From Halorubrum ezzemoulense DSM 17463 (GTDB lineage Archaea; Halobacteriota; Halobacteria; Halobacteriales; Haloferacaceae), in contig NZ_NEDJ01000027.1 in the NCBI RefSeq assembly GCF_002114285.1, forward strand, positions 1-40,531: 40,531 bases of DNA, written 5' to 3'. Positions 4,069 through 38,349 of the stretch are shown piece after piece. Position 1 is the first letter of the stretch. Every line of letters begins with the position of its first letter. The translations under genes and the position numbers were made by a program. Under the pieces are notes generated by a model. The model searched no databases. It was not told the DNA's origin and worked only from the letters and a program-made list of their open reading frames with translations.

Positions 4069-4077
4069 ATCCCTCAC

Positions 4078-4415
4078 GGTGGCGCGTGCCTGCGAGCGGC
4101 CGCCCTCGGCGGCCGCGACGGAGCGCGCGAGGTCGCCGGCGCTACGCGCCGGCTGCCAGAGAATCTTCGATTCTCGCTGGACGCGGTGAGCGCTCGGAGA
4201 GCGCGAACCGCGAGGCTGGGGAGGCGTGAGGCGCCGTGCGGTTGCGGTCGGGCGGGACTCAAAGGGGCAGCCGGCGGGGCGGGCGCAGGCGACGTAAGCA
4301 CCGAACGAGGGAGCGACAGCGACCGAGTGAGGCGCGCAGCGAGCGTGCGCCCGCCTCGCCGGCTGGGGCTTTGGGAGTGTTCGCCGCCGGTCTGCTGATA
4401 GTCGCTTATAAATGA
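4078..4415 (+). repeat. Hairpin-rich intergenic repeat, copy 1 (full length)
   Basis: This gene-free stretch holds four consecutive stem-loops: 4096-4116 (9-bp stem, loop CTC), 4135-4153 (8 bp, loop TAC), 4159-4175 (7 bp, loop TTC), and 4182-4212 (6-bp outer and 6-bp inner stems separated by a GA/GA internal loop, end loop GGA). After them comes GAGGCTGGGGAGGCGTGAGG (4212-4231), identical to the minus strand of 24113-24132. A second GGCTGGGG lies at 4361-4368. The first 16 bases of the core (4081-4096) match 20064-20079 exactly. The right end runs into CTTATAAAT at 4405-4413, a TATA-like sequence. I recall this family as common in Halorubrum chromosomes but could not check. No protein is supported here. 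Confidence 0.8.
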
Positions 4416-16965: not shown

Positions 16966-17039
16966 GGGCCGGTAGCTCAGTTAGGGAGAGCGTCCGGCTT
17001 TTAACCGGACGGTCGGGGGTTCGAATCCCTCCCGGCCCG
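16966..17039 (+). tRNA. tRNA-Lys (anticodon UUU)
   Basis: The 74-base cloverleaf has acceptor stem GGGCCGG (16966-16972) pairing with CCGGCCC (17032-17038), a D-arm GCTC...GAGC, an anticodon stem TCCGG/CCGGA enclosing loop CTTTTAA (anticodon TTT) and a T-arm containing GGTTCGAATCC. The discriminator is G. No intron is present and CCA is not encoded. ACGTTTATCC at 16929-16938 is a TATA box at the right distance. Confidence 0.96.
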
Positions 17040-18210: not shown

Positions 18211-19896
<1,686 letters not shown>

Positions 19897-19920
19897 TACG
19901 ACCATTGATTGTTTGTGATT

Positions 19921-19957
19921 CTATATAAACCCTTTGTTCAGGTCGTGCGAAATCGCA
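19921..19957 (-). promoter_or_regulatory. Thermosome promoter with upstream palindrome
   Basis: On the minus strand GGTTTATATAG (19921-19931) is a strong TATA box centred about 27 bp before the preferred ATG. Just upstream, TGCGA AA TCGCA (19946-19957) is a perfect inverted repeat. Haloarchaeal chaperonin genes are heat-shock induced, and this palindrome is a candidate binding site for the heat-shock regulator; that link is inferred. Confidence 0.55.
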
Positions 19958-20000
19958 ACACGGTGGGGGAGTATCGGCCAGTATGCGGTGAGTTCACACG

Positions 20001-20013
20001 ACCCTTTATATAG
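20001..20013 (+). promoter_or_regulatory. Strong TATA box facing repeat copy 2
   Basis: ACCCTTTATATAG contains the same TTTATATAG as the thermosome promoter but points right. A start near 20032 would transcribe repeat copy 2 (from 20061). No plus-strand coding region follows before 20970, so the expected product would be a non-coding RNA or an antisense to the end of the KH gene. The box is nearly symmetric, so a distal thermosome promoter on the minus strand is also possible. Confidence 0.4.
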
Positions 20014-20060
20014 TACGCTAACTCGACCGTTGAGGCCGAGGTTGAGCGGCGCCAAACTAC

Positions 20061-20215
20061 GGCGGCGCGTGCCTGCGAGGCCGCTCTACGGCCGGATAGC
20101 ACGCGCGAGGTCGGCGACGCAACGCGTCGGCTGCCAGATGGACCGGAGGTCCTTCGCCGGAGTCGGCCGACTGAAGGAAGGCCGACGAGGCTGGGGCTTT
20201 GGCGGAGATCAGCGT
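20061..20215 (+). repeat. Hairpin-rich intergenic repeat, copy 2 (short form)
   Basis: The left end GGCGGCGCGTGCCT (20061-20074) matches copy 3, and the following bases match copy 1. Hairpins: 20079-20093 (5 bp), 20115-20129 (6 bp, loop AAC), 20140-20152 (5 bp, loop GGA) and 20162-20186 (7 bp). GAGGCTGGGG follows at 20187-20196 and continues directly into CTTTGG, the sequence that in copy 1 follows the second GGCTGGGG, so the middle module is absent. Pair 9-19 of the second hairpin is A-T here and G-C in copy 1. The 376-bp gap from 19906 to 20281 holds this, two promoters and nothing else recognisable. Confidence 0.8.
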
Positions 20216-20281
20216 ATCCCGGTAGAGGTCGTCGTTAGTCGAAAGGCGACCGCGGCCGCAACGGGAAAAAGATATTCTCTG

Positions 20282-20824
20282 TTATTGCGGCGCGTTGAAG
20301 CTCACGTCGTCGTCGAGCTCGTTCGACATGCGCTCCAAGTACGAGTACACCGCGCCGTGCGGAGCCCCGTCGAGCAGCATTCCGACAGCGCGCCGCACCA
20401 CCTCCAGCTCCTCGGGCTGCCCCACCGCGCCCACGGTCGACCCGTAGACGACGACGTTCGCGCCCGACAGCTCCTCGATGAGCTCCCGAGTCCGGCCGTT
20501 CTCGCCGATTATCCGGCCCTTCTTACGCTGGAGGTCGTTGTCGTTGCGAGTGTGTTCGGAGAGGTCGACCAGGTCGAGCGTCCGGAGGTCGTGGTCGAGG
20601 ATCGACAGCGCGGTCTCCGGCTTGAAGCCGCGGCCGATCGCCTTGATCACGTCCGGGGCCACCATCGCCGCCACGGGGTCGTCGCGCTCCTCGATGGCGA
20701 CGCTTCCGGACTCGGAGTCGATGTCGAGCCGCACGTTCGCCCGCTCTTCGATCTCTCGCATCGTCTCGCCGCCGGCGCCGATGACGACGCCGATCCGGTC
20801 CTGCGGAACCGTCACGTGTTGCAT
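20282..20824 (-). CDS. Dim2/PNO1-like KH-domain RNA-binding protein
   Basis: A 180-residue protein with two KH domains. The first begins QHVTVPQDRIGVVIGAGGET (GxGG loop in the standard GxxG position), the second RKKGRIIGENGRTRELIEEL, ending in GANVVVYGSTVGAVG. This is the archaeal homologue of eukaryotic Dim2/Pno1, which helps form the 3' end of small-subunit rRNA. In many archaea it lies next to the RIO1 kinase and initiation factor 1A; here the RIO1 gene is upstream on the same strand, 283 bp away, while aIF1A is not in the window. ATG 20824 is the natural start. Confidence 0.92.
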   Translation of the reverse strand: MQHVTVPQDRIGVVIGAGGETMREIEERANVRLDIDSESGSVAIEERDDPVAAMVAPDVIKAIGRGFKPETALSILDHDLRTLDLVDLSEHTRNDNDLQRKKGRIIGENGRTRELIEELSGANVVVYGSTVGAVGQPEELEVVRRAVGMLLDGAPHGAVYSYLERMSNELDDDVSFNAPQ

Positions 20825-20969
20825 ATCACGGAGTACCCGGCGGAGCCTTTTAAGAGTGTTCCGCGGCGGGCGCCGTGTGGCCGCGTGACGGTGGTCTCCG
20901 GCCGGTTGTCCGTCCGAAGGCGTGTCACATCGGAATGAGGTTTTTCTGTCGACTCCGCGAGCGACGCGT

Positions 20970-21077
20970 ATGGAGATCAGACCGGCGGCGTCGGACGCGG
21001 ACTCCGGGGGACTGATCCGCGTACAGGGGTTGTCCGAGGAAACCTATCCGACCGCGATCTACGCCCGCGAGGTCTGA
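20970..21077 (+). CDS. Putative 35-residue small protein
   Basis: A 108-base frame begins MEIRPAASDADSGG and ends AIYAREV. It lies on the opposite strand between the KH and RIO1 genes. Third positions are mostly G/C (30 of 35 sense codons), as in the neighbours, and an AT-rich box AGGTTTTTCTG (20938-20948) sits about 27 bp before the ATG, the layout of leaderless genes. It is acidic, without Cys or a membrane segment. It could be a real small protein or a chance frame; I do not recognise a family. Confidence 0.4.
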   Translation: MEIRPAASDADSGGLIRVQGLSEETYPTAIYAREV

Positions 21078-22797: not shown

Positions 22798-22835
22798 GTC
22801 GACGGCGGGGTCGTAGGGTGTCGACGGCGGGGTCG
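22798..22835. repeat. 16-bp direct repeat, 22-bp period
   Basis: GTCGACGGCGGGGTCG occurs at 22798-22813 and again at 22820-22835. Two copies only, in the gap between the rhodanese and Hjc genes. This is most likely a local tandem duplication. Confidence 0.6.
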
Positions 22836-22872
22836 CGAGACGCCGGTGACGAACTCGCAGACGCGATCGACT

Positions 22873-23244
22873 TCACCCGCGCAGCCGCCACCACAGCGAC
22901 CGGAGCTTGTACCCGAGCGAGTCCCGCTCGTACCCGTTCCAGCCGCTCATCCCGCCGGAGAGCGTCGACGCCTCGTAGCCCGCCTCGTCGAGGACGCGGG
23001 TCGCGCGCTTGGCGACGATCCCCATCTTACAGACGGTGACGACCTCGCTGTCGTCGGGAATCTCGTCGAGCCGGCGGCGGAGCGCGGCGTCGTCGCCGCT
23101 CCGGAGGTCGTCGTACACGGGCACGTTCCGGCTCCCGTCGATCGCGCCGCTCCCGTAGTCCGACTCGGGGCGGATGTCCAGCAGGAACGGCTCGTCGTCC
23201 GTGCCGAGGCGCTCGTCCAGCTCGTCCGGGCGGATACGGCTCAT
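22873..23244 (-). CDS. Rhodanese-domain protein
   Basis: A 123-residue single-domain rhodanese. FLLDIRPESDYGSGAIDGSRNVP is the CH2A-like entry with the typical DIRxxxxYxxGxIxGSxNVP pattern. The active-site loop is TVCKMGIVAKRATRVL, with Cys 72 as the sulfur-accepting residue and a CxxGxxA layout. SGGMSGWNGY is the usual end. It probably carries persulfide sulfur or acts in thiol chemistry; the donor is unknown. ATG 23244 (MSRIRPDEL) is preferred over an upstream codon at 23271. Confidence 0.88.
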   Translation of the reverse strand: MSRIRPDELDERLGTDDEPFLLDIRPESDYGSGAIDGSRNVPVYDDLRSGDDAALRRRLDEIPDDSEVVTVCKMGIVAKRATRVLDEAGYEASTLSGGMSGWNGYERDSLGYKLRSLWWRLRG

Positions 23245-24034: not shown

Positions 24035-24214
24035 GTAGCAGATCGGCGGCGGCCACCTCCGAAGCCCCGGCCTCGCGGCGCCCCGGTGAGTCCCCCTCTG
24101 CCCAGCACAGCACCTCACGCCTCCCCAGCCTCGTCGGACCGGCGCGACTGCGTCGGTCCGACTCCCTCGCGCCTGCTCCTCACGCCCTGCGGGCATTCGG
24201 AGGCACGCGCCGCC
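24035..24214 (-). repeat. Hairpin-rich intergenic repeat, copy 3 (minus strand)
   Basis: Read on the minus strand it starts GGCGGCGCGTGCCT (24214-24201), carries a small GCCC-TGC-GGGC hairpin (24184-24194), a long stem GTCGGACC/GGTCCGAC (24133-24140 with 24155-24162, further inner pairing), then the 20-base core 24132-24113 identical to copy 1, and a second GGCCGGGGCTT (24072-24062). The end GCCGCCG.TCTGCT resembles the corresponding end of copy 1. The gap 23893-24307 also holds promoters of the two flanking genes: TTTATTTA (24219-24226) and CATTATTG (24277-24284) before the phosphohexomutase gene. Confidence 0.8.
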
Positions 24215-24307
24215 GCGGTTTATTTATCAATAGCCGCGGGCGATCCGCTCGCGCAACCTTCGCGGCCGACATGGGGCATTATTGTCCCCGCCGCCGACGT
24301 GGCCGAC

Positions 24308-38111: not shown

Positions 38112-38190
38112 TGCCGTACATCAATCCGCGTGGTTCGGGACCGCCCGCGGGAGGGACCCGGGACGAGGTCGGAGAGGAGGGCCGAACCGG

Positions 38191-38349
38191 TCAGCGGGGA
38201 CGCAACGGCGTCTCGGGGACGGACTCGGGCAGGGCCGGATTGATCAGCGGGGACGCAGCGGCGTTTCAGGGGCGAACTCGGGGGGAGAGCCAGCGATCAG
38301 CGGGAACGCGACAGCGCCTCGGGGGCGGCCCGGAGGAGCGTCCCGAGGT
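38191..38349. repeat. Three tandem 53-bp units copying the 3' end of the hydrolase gene
   Basis: TCAGCGGG begins at 38191, 38244 and 38297, an exact 53-bp period. Units 1 and 2 share TCAGCGGGGACGCA and later ACTCGGG; unit 3 is the true end of the hydrolase coding sequence, including its stop. The two left units lie outside the gene. Because 53 is not a multiple of three, they cannot simply add codons in frame. Confidence 0.75.

Follow-up and report, generated by a model that had tools for sequence, protein, structure and literature searches.

The window analysed here is a stretch of Halorubrum DNA of 40,531 bases. Within it, a thermosome gene and its upstream neighbor on the same strand, which encodes a KH-domain protein, are separated by a gap of 376 bases that holds two TATA boxes and a hairpin array. 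The features relevant to the analysis are as follows.

18211-19905, minus strand: thermosome gene (Cpn60_TCP1; Pfam PF00118, E 4.6e-184)
19921-19929, minus strand: proximal TATA box of the thermosome gene, an exact TTTATATAG, near-invariant in 41 genus loci and 57 non-Halorubrum loci
19932-19936, minus strand: proximal BRE-like word of the cRnAA type (CAAAG in the window), occupying columns 13-17, counted from the anchor, which are conserved across 57 loci
19944-19962, no strand assigned: palindrome-like block between the boxes, CGTGCGAAATCGCAACACG, whose columns are well conserved across the 41 genus loci; presumably functional
19981-20000, no strand assigned: TGTG/CAC-type block adjoining the distal box, a candidate factor site by column conservation
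20005-20013, plus strand: distal, outward-facing TATA box, at a fixed offset in 41/41 genus loci and at 80-88 in 64/77 named loci
20034-20036, plus strand: predicted transcription start, placed by box spacing only, with the thermosome gene's distance of about 30 nt counted from the first T
20061-20270, plus strand: hairpin array, a shortened form of a dispersed element (copy 2), recognized by likeness to other copies and by its fold
20063-20110, plus strand: P1 hairpin at the start of the array (covariance model match, 46.0 bits; covariation in the family)
20282-20824, minus strand: gene for the KH-domain protein (Pfam KH_1, KH_KRR1_2nd, KH_PNO1_2nd)
22103-21108, minus strand: RIO kinase gene, further upstream of the thermosome gene than KH
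4076-4390, plus strand: further copy of the element (P1 at 4080-4132, 47.4 bits)
24123-24221, minus strand: further copy of the element (P1 at 24165-24212, 61.4 bits)

Exactly two copies of TTTATATAG occur in the 40,531 bases, at 20005-20013 on the plus strand and at 19921-19929 on the minus strand, and none in 100 dinucleotide shuffles of the window. The two boxes point away from each other, with their low ends 84 bp apart, and the distal one is of the TTTAWA type that characterizes haloarchaeal core promoters. Thus, the observation of the first-pass annotation that the outward box is identical to the TATA box of the thermosome gene is confirmed, as is its placement back to back with a heat-shock chaperonin promoter, to which it is physically tied. 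At the thermosome gene, the distance between the box and the start, estimated from the conserved ATG, is about 30, so the plus-strand start is predicted at approximately 20034-20036, close to the position near 20032 proposed previously.

The stretch of almost 1 kb to the right of the distal box was said to lack a protein-coding gene, and we find the same: the plus-strand frames at 19934-20935, 20478-20885 and 20970-21074 have no Pfam match, and the next genes are both on the minus strand. The open frame at 19934-20938 was considered as a gene and rejected for want of such a match. The first T4 run on the plus strand after the distal box is at 20848, and a search of 19900-21000 with a sigma-70/terminator model, which is ill-suited to archaea, returned nothing, so that no terminator-like site was found; therefore, an outward RNA, if the box fires here, would cross the array and enter the KH gene antisense. 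The start codon of the thermosome gene is probably the second ATG, with its A at 19896 (CAT at 19894-19896 is identical in 41/41 genus loci); conservation does not extend to the ATG upstream of it at 19903-19905 (A in 28/41, T in 34/41).

Conservation of the distal box

KH orthologues are present in all 52 genomes of the genus. We read the locus in 50 of these (G033 and G043 were left out) and dropped 9 of the 50 that have no adjacent thermosome start, which leaves 41 thermosome-KH loci including that of the window. All 41 contain a TATA-like word 85-88 bp from the proximal box; in the distal box, bases 1-3, 6 and 7 never vary, and each of the remaining four is conserved in 35-40 of the loci. 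Across the same set, sequence conservation drops after approximately position 20033, that is, at the predicted start. The tandem arrangement of the two genes extends well beyond the genus, with a KH match within 1.5 kb in 51 of 77 loci from named genomes, always on the same strand.

The wider set consisted of 80 loci from named genomes, ranked by the similarity of the thermosome protein only, of which 77 were used; L206, L227 and L228 were dropped because they do not contain the proximal anchor. A distal box was called when at least 7 of the 8 places of TTTA[AT]A[AT][AG] were matched 80-88 bp from the anchor. By this definition, the box is present in 64 of the 77 loci, representing 19 of 25 named genera; 13 loci have no 7/8 match in that interval, and Haloferax has weak versions only (TTTATC, TTTATG). 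Among the 65 boxes found at 79-90, the mean offset from the anchor is 84.7 (sd 1.55). Outside Halorubrum, with which the loci L175 and L184 from metagenome-assembled genomes were grouped in this comparison as well as in the box profile, the KH-upstream control, the orientation counts and the inverted-repeat test, 44 of 57 loci have a box at 81-88, compared to a mean of 0.10 (max 1) in shuffles and 0.09 (max 1) in the other 8-bp windows of the same loci. The region upstream of the KH gene, examined with the same measure as a control (n=42), contains no locked distal box; its best 8-bp window, 23-30 from the KH start, has 6 matches. The recurrence of the distal box is, by these comparisons, far beyond chance, and the box is under strong selection.

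A second thermosome paralogue, about 60-70% identical in the N-terminal part, has a distal box of its own, TTTATATA, located about 153-155 bp from its proximal box (L111-L170). The profile of this paralogue was built from those 33 loci in which a box falls at 142-164. The 59 loci in which the distance was measured were hand-picked from a listing whose entries had to match the proximal promoter at the DNA level, with no such requirement for the distal box. In 9 of the 33 loci, a GTTANCA-type motif lies about 45 nt before the distal box.

Surroundings and orientation of the distal box

The BRE of haloarchaea is given as CGAAA in PMC4983044. In a profile of 45 non-Halorubrum loci (one of these boxes, TTGAAAAG at 89, is spurious, and later counts use 44), the proximal box is accompanied by a conserved BRE (CGAAA or cRnAA), but the distal box has none on either side; nor is a BRE visible at the distal box of the second paralogue (n=33). 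About 30 nt past the distal box, the profiles of both paralogues show neither an initiator nor a start codon that is conserved, and no conserved columns are found downstream of it in the non-Halorubrum loci. In 6 of the 41 box-bearing syntenic loci, the start predicted from the box falls inside the KH frame, with the KH stop codon 8-23 bp from the box, and in none of the 41 does the stop codon overlap the box; at L237, where the KH frame covers the position of the box, the box is missing. In many other loci, the box is hundreds of base pairs away from KH. With no conserved BRE, no conserved product and, at some loci, a predicted start inside KH, what is selected is the box and its spacing to the thermosome promoter rather than a product. 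The earlier proposal that the box marks a specific non-coding RNA is not supported, given an unconserved downstream region, no conserved BRE, predicted starts inside KH in compact genomes, and boxes at loci where the repeat was not found.

The box seems to face outward. In the 77 loci, the forward (outward) orientation scores higher in 57, the two are equal in 14, and the reverse scores higher in 6; furthermore, the distal and proximal boxes of Halorubrum both carry the 11-mer TTT[AT]TATAGAA when read outward. A score at 81-87 is also obtained with the reverse word. This modest bias supports the outward orientation but does not prove it, given the near symmetry of TTTATATA and a consensus that had been set in the haloarchaeal sense. 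A calibration of the orientation score on other gene starts was set aside, as a small number of positions and gene families governed its outcome.

Words resembling the TGTG/CAC block occur upstream of the distal box in other genera, too. When the inter-box motif was tested for inverted repeats, the result did not reach significance (24 of 44 loci above their own shuffles). In haloarchaea, the sites of GvpE-type activators overlap the BRE. The block adjoining the distal box is comparable in that a factor might bind there, just before a TATA box without a good BRE, although the motif here is weak.

The hairpin array as a dispersed element

The array belongs to a Halorubrum-wide modular element with conserved linkers (GAGGCTGGGG, GACTCAAAGGGG and GGGGCTTTGG), GA/GA internal loops and strong covariation. 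Its other copies were found by gapped blastn; a gapless repeat search yielded mainly GC-rich coding similarity. A covariance model of the first hairpin, P1, built from 41 copies (R1), has 69 matches at E<=0.01 in the 3.6-Mb assembly of the window's genome, one near-palindromic place being counted on both strands. The window copy, at 46 bits, is shortened and diverged and stands near the bottom of this list. Among 195 genomes sampled, R1 was detected in 17, namely, 11 of the same genus with 14 to at least 30 matches each and, among the other 184, 6 with 1-2 weak matches. Parts of the element recur on plasmids of Halobaculum and Natrinema; altogether, four plasmid records contain partial matches, none spanning most of the query, and the element was not found in phage records. 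At one locus (L020, where contig G000:C70 ends), CTGTCTCTTATCCACCACTGACGCTGCCGACGA comes after the element near the end of the contig; this sequence resembles a sequencing transposon adaptor, and the end of this contig may thus have arisen as an assembly artefact.

Compensatory changes support the P1 hairpin. In the unfitted alignment, they affect 9 of 17 pairs, a count reached by 0 of 500 shuffles; in the fitted alignment, 10 of 17 pairs, a count reached by 13 of 500 shuffles, with the covariation score reached by 0 of 500. In the paired columns, G-T exceeds A-C, 37 vs 8 in the fitted alignment and 18 vs 7 in the unfitted one (p 0.04; alignment cells are not independent, so the p values are rough). 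This excess suggests selection on one strand, as RNA or single-stranded DNA, in the plus direction of the window copy. Counts of GU over the whole fold, which are confounded by base composition, are 43 vs 31 for P1 (p 0.12) and 256 vs 80 for 200 nt. The fold of 20028-20281 has an energy of -121.9 kcal/mol (z -2.64), and that of the opposite strand is similar (z -2.30). No Rfam 15 family matches the array at the gathering score, the only such match being a tRNA at 16966-17039; the best weak match in 19880-20400 is asR3, at 15.8 bits against a cut-off of 46. In some copies, a TATA-like word lies 14-21 nt before P1; it was considered as the element's own promoter and rejected as too close.

Of the 41 genus loci, 29 carry pieces of the array, recognized by P1, by linker motifs or by both, and all 29 have them in the same orientation. 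In the remaining 12, the pattern search found none, and the distal box is there nonetheless; the shortest intergenic region, 122 bases (L077), likewise has the box and no array that we could find. The box is therefore not part of the repeat, contrary to the first-pass assignment of the box to a repeat copy. The related suggestion that an RNA from the box would open into the hairpin array is borne out in part: the array is real, but its link to the box does not hold. As a dispersed element that is almost confined to Halorubrum, the array was inserted beside the box later.

In being dispersed, short, transposase-free and palindrome-rich, the array resembles the PATE, MITE and SMR repeats of Haloquadratum, among which the PATEs are divergent in sequence (PMC3119063), and a comparison with PATE end structures located palindromes in the array element. 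It differs from those repeats in its multi-module build, conserved linkers and strongly covarying hairpins, and no link to an IS200-type transposase was found: none of five element motifs lies within the loci of the genome's two TnpA genes (IS200/IS605). REP sequences also are dispersed palindromic repeats (PMC12306157), but the array is longer, modular and, in our sample, almost confined to one genus. We found no description of the element in the open-licence papers searched.

Possible roles of the distal box

That the box is a chance A+T-rich word without function can be given virtually no credence, considering 44 of 57 loci against 0.1 expected and a spacing that is fixed over 19 named genera. 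A functional, heat-responsive non-coding RNA that starts near 20034 and has the array as its working part would account for a good TATA box facing the array, for the strong covariation of P1 with its plus-strand excess of G-T over A-C (37 vs 8 and 18 vs 7), and for the single orientation of the array pieces throughout 29 of 41 genus loci. We nevertheless regard such an RNA as quite unlikely: the box exists without a detected array and far outside the genus of the array, the array is a 69-match dispersed element that is not tied to the thermosome promoter, and the window copy is shortened and diverged (46 bits). In addition, the distal box lacks a BRE, and the array lacks an Rfam match at the gathering score. 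Nor does the array look like a conserved non-coding RNA gene, with no sequence conservation downstream of the box and R1 in only 17 of 195 genomes, 11 of these in the genus.

Alternatively, the box could be a divergent promoter whose RNA, antisense to the 3' end of KH, would during heat shock limit either KH expression or transcription running on from KH into the thermosome promoter. The tandem of KH and thermosome genes in all 51 of the 77 loci with KH within 1.5 kb, the predicted start inside KH in 6 of 41 loci, and the absence of a terminator-like site before KH in the window are compatible with this role, which, all the same, is unlikely, as the box is hundreds of base pairs from KH in many loci and a locked box also accompanies the second paralogue, at loci for which no KH match is reported. 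Still harder to defend is a box that is read the other way, as a second, upstream promoter of the thermosome gene with a leader of about 80 nt. The near-palindromic TTTATATA and the reverse word that scores at 81-87 would allow it; the higher forward score in 57 of 77 loci, the outward 11-mer shared by the distal and proximal boxes of Halorubrum, and the lack of a BRE on that side make it very unlikely.

The reading that we favor, with moderate confidence, sees in 20005-20013 a TATA element of ancient origin, locked in position and facing outward, at which the control region of the thermosome (cct) gene of haloarchaea ends. TBP, together with a TFB, would load at the distal box, a factor bound between the two boxes would probably help the loading of the core factors, and the chaperonin promoter would work as a two-box unit. 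Transcription outward from the distal box is plausible; if it occurs, it may be a by-product, or the act of transcribing might matter, for example, against read-through from KH, rather than a defined RNA. In this lineage, the array would have landed beyond the box, and any outward transcript here would run through it. With the array being a later insertion in one genus, a dedicated RNA from it is unproven, and a functional array RNA is unlikely.

A further reading, which we offer tentatively and which may well not hold, is that the second, BRE-less TATA box of haloarchaeal chaperonin genes, at a fixed distance (about 85 or 154 bp depending on the paralogue), is a TBP-binding heat-shock control element that is no gene's promoter. 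If so, archaea would have in it an equivalent of upstream activators whose action depends on distance, one that consists of core machinery and sets the heat-shock output. Archaea have neither the sigma factors of bacteria nor the HSF of eukaryotes, and how they turn on their heat-shock genes is, to our knowledge, largely an open question; the cct1 promoter of Haloferax has reportedly been worked on. The two-box architecture, present in most of the haloarchaeal genera examined, would offer a precise, mutable target for asking whether core factors bound at a distance regulate the chaperonin. It also urges caution in that a good TATA box alone is no ground for naming an RNA.

In Halobacterium, deleting tbpD or tfbA, which encode alternative core factors, lowers the level of the cctA transcript (PMC2121645), so control of this gene family by core factors has been reported in one relative. 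The likeness to the present case lies in the gene family and in regulation based on core factors; that work, in the portion of the paper available to us, comprises factor knockouts and expression and mentions no second box. The bidirectional promoters of Pyrococcus furiosus yield antisense transcripts from symmetric boxes, which PMC6640164 takes to be mostly non-functional. They resemble the distal box in the possible transcription opposite to the gene, in the symmetric TATA element and in an RNA that may have no function. As described there, they have one shared TATA element, with starts about 49-50 bp apart, whereas the thermosome region has two boxes about 85 bp apart (84 bp in the window) and thus is not a promoter of that type; unlike those promoters, it also has a locked spacing and a distal box without a BRE. 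Antisense transcripts have been reported in Haloferax and Halobacterium as well (PMC4983044, PMC6523106). Our literature search found no paper that joins the haloarchaeal thermosome with a bidirectional or divergent promoter or with a conserved TATA box.

Two further features of the window are of note. On the minus strand at 22834-22927, ARAGORN predicts a 94-nt tRNA-Pro, perhaps intron-bearing, which is not in Rfam at the gathering score. At 38178-38336, there are three tandem repeats of 53 nt, 66-100% identical to the first.
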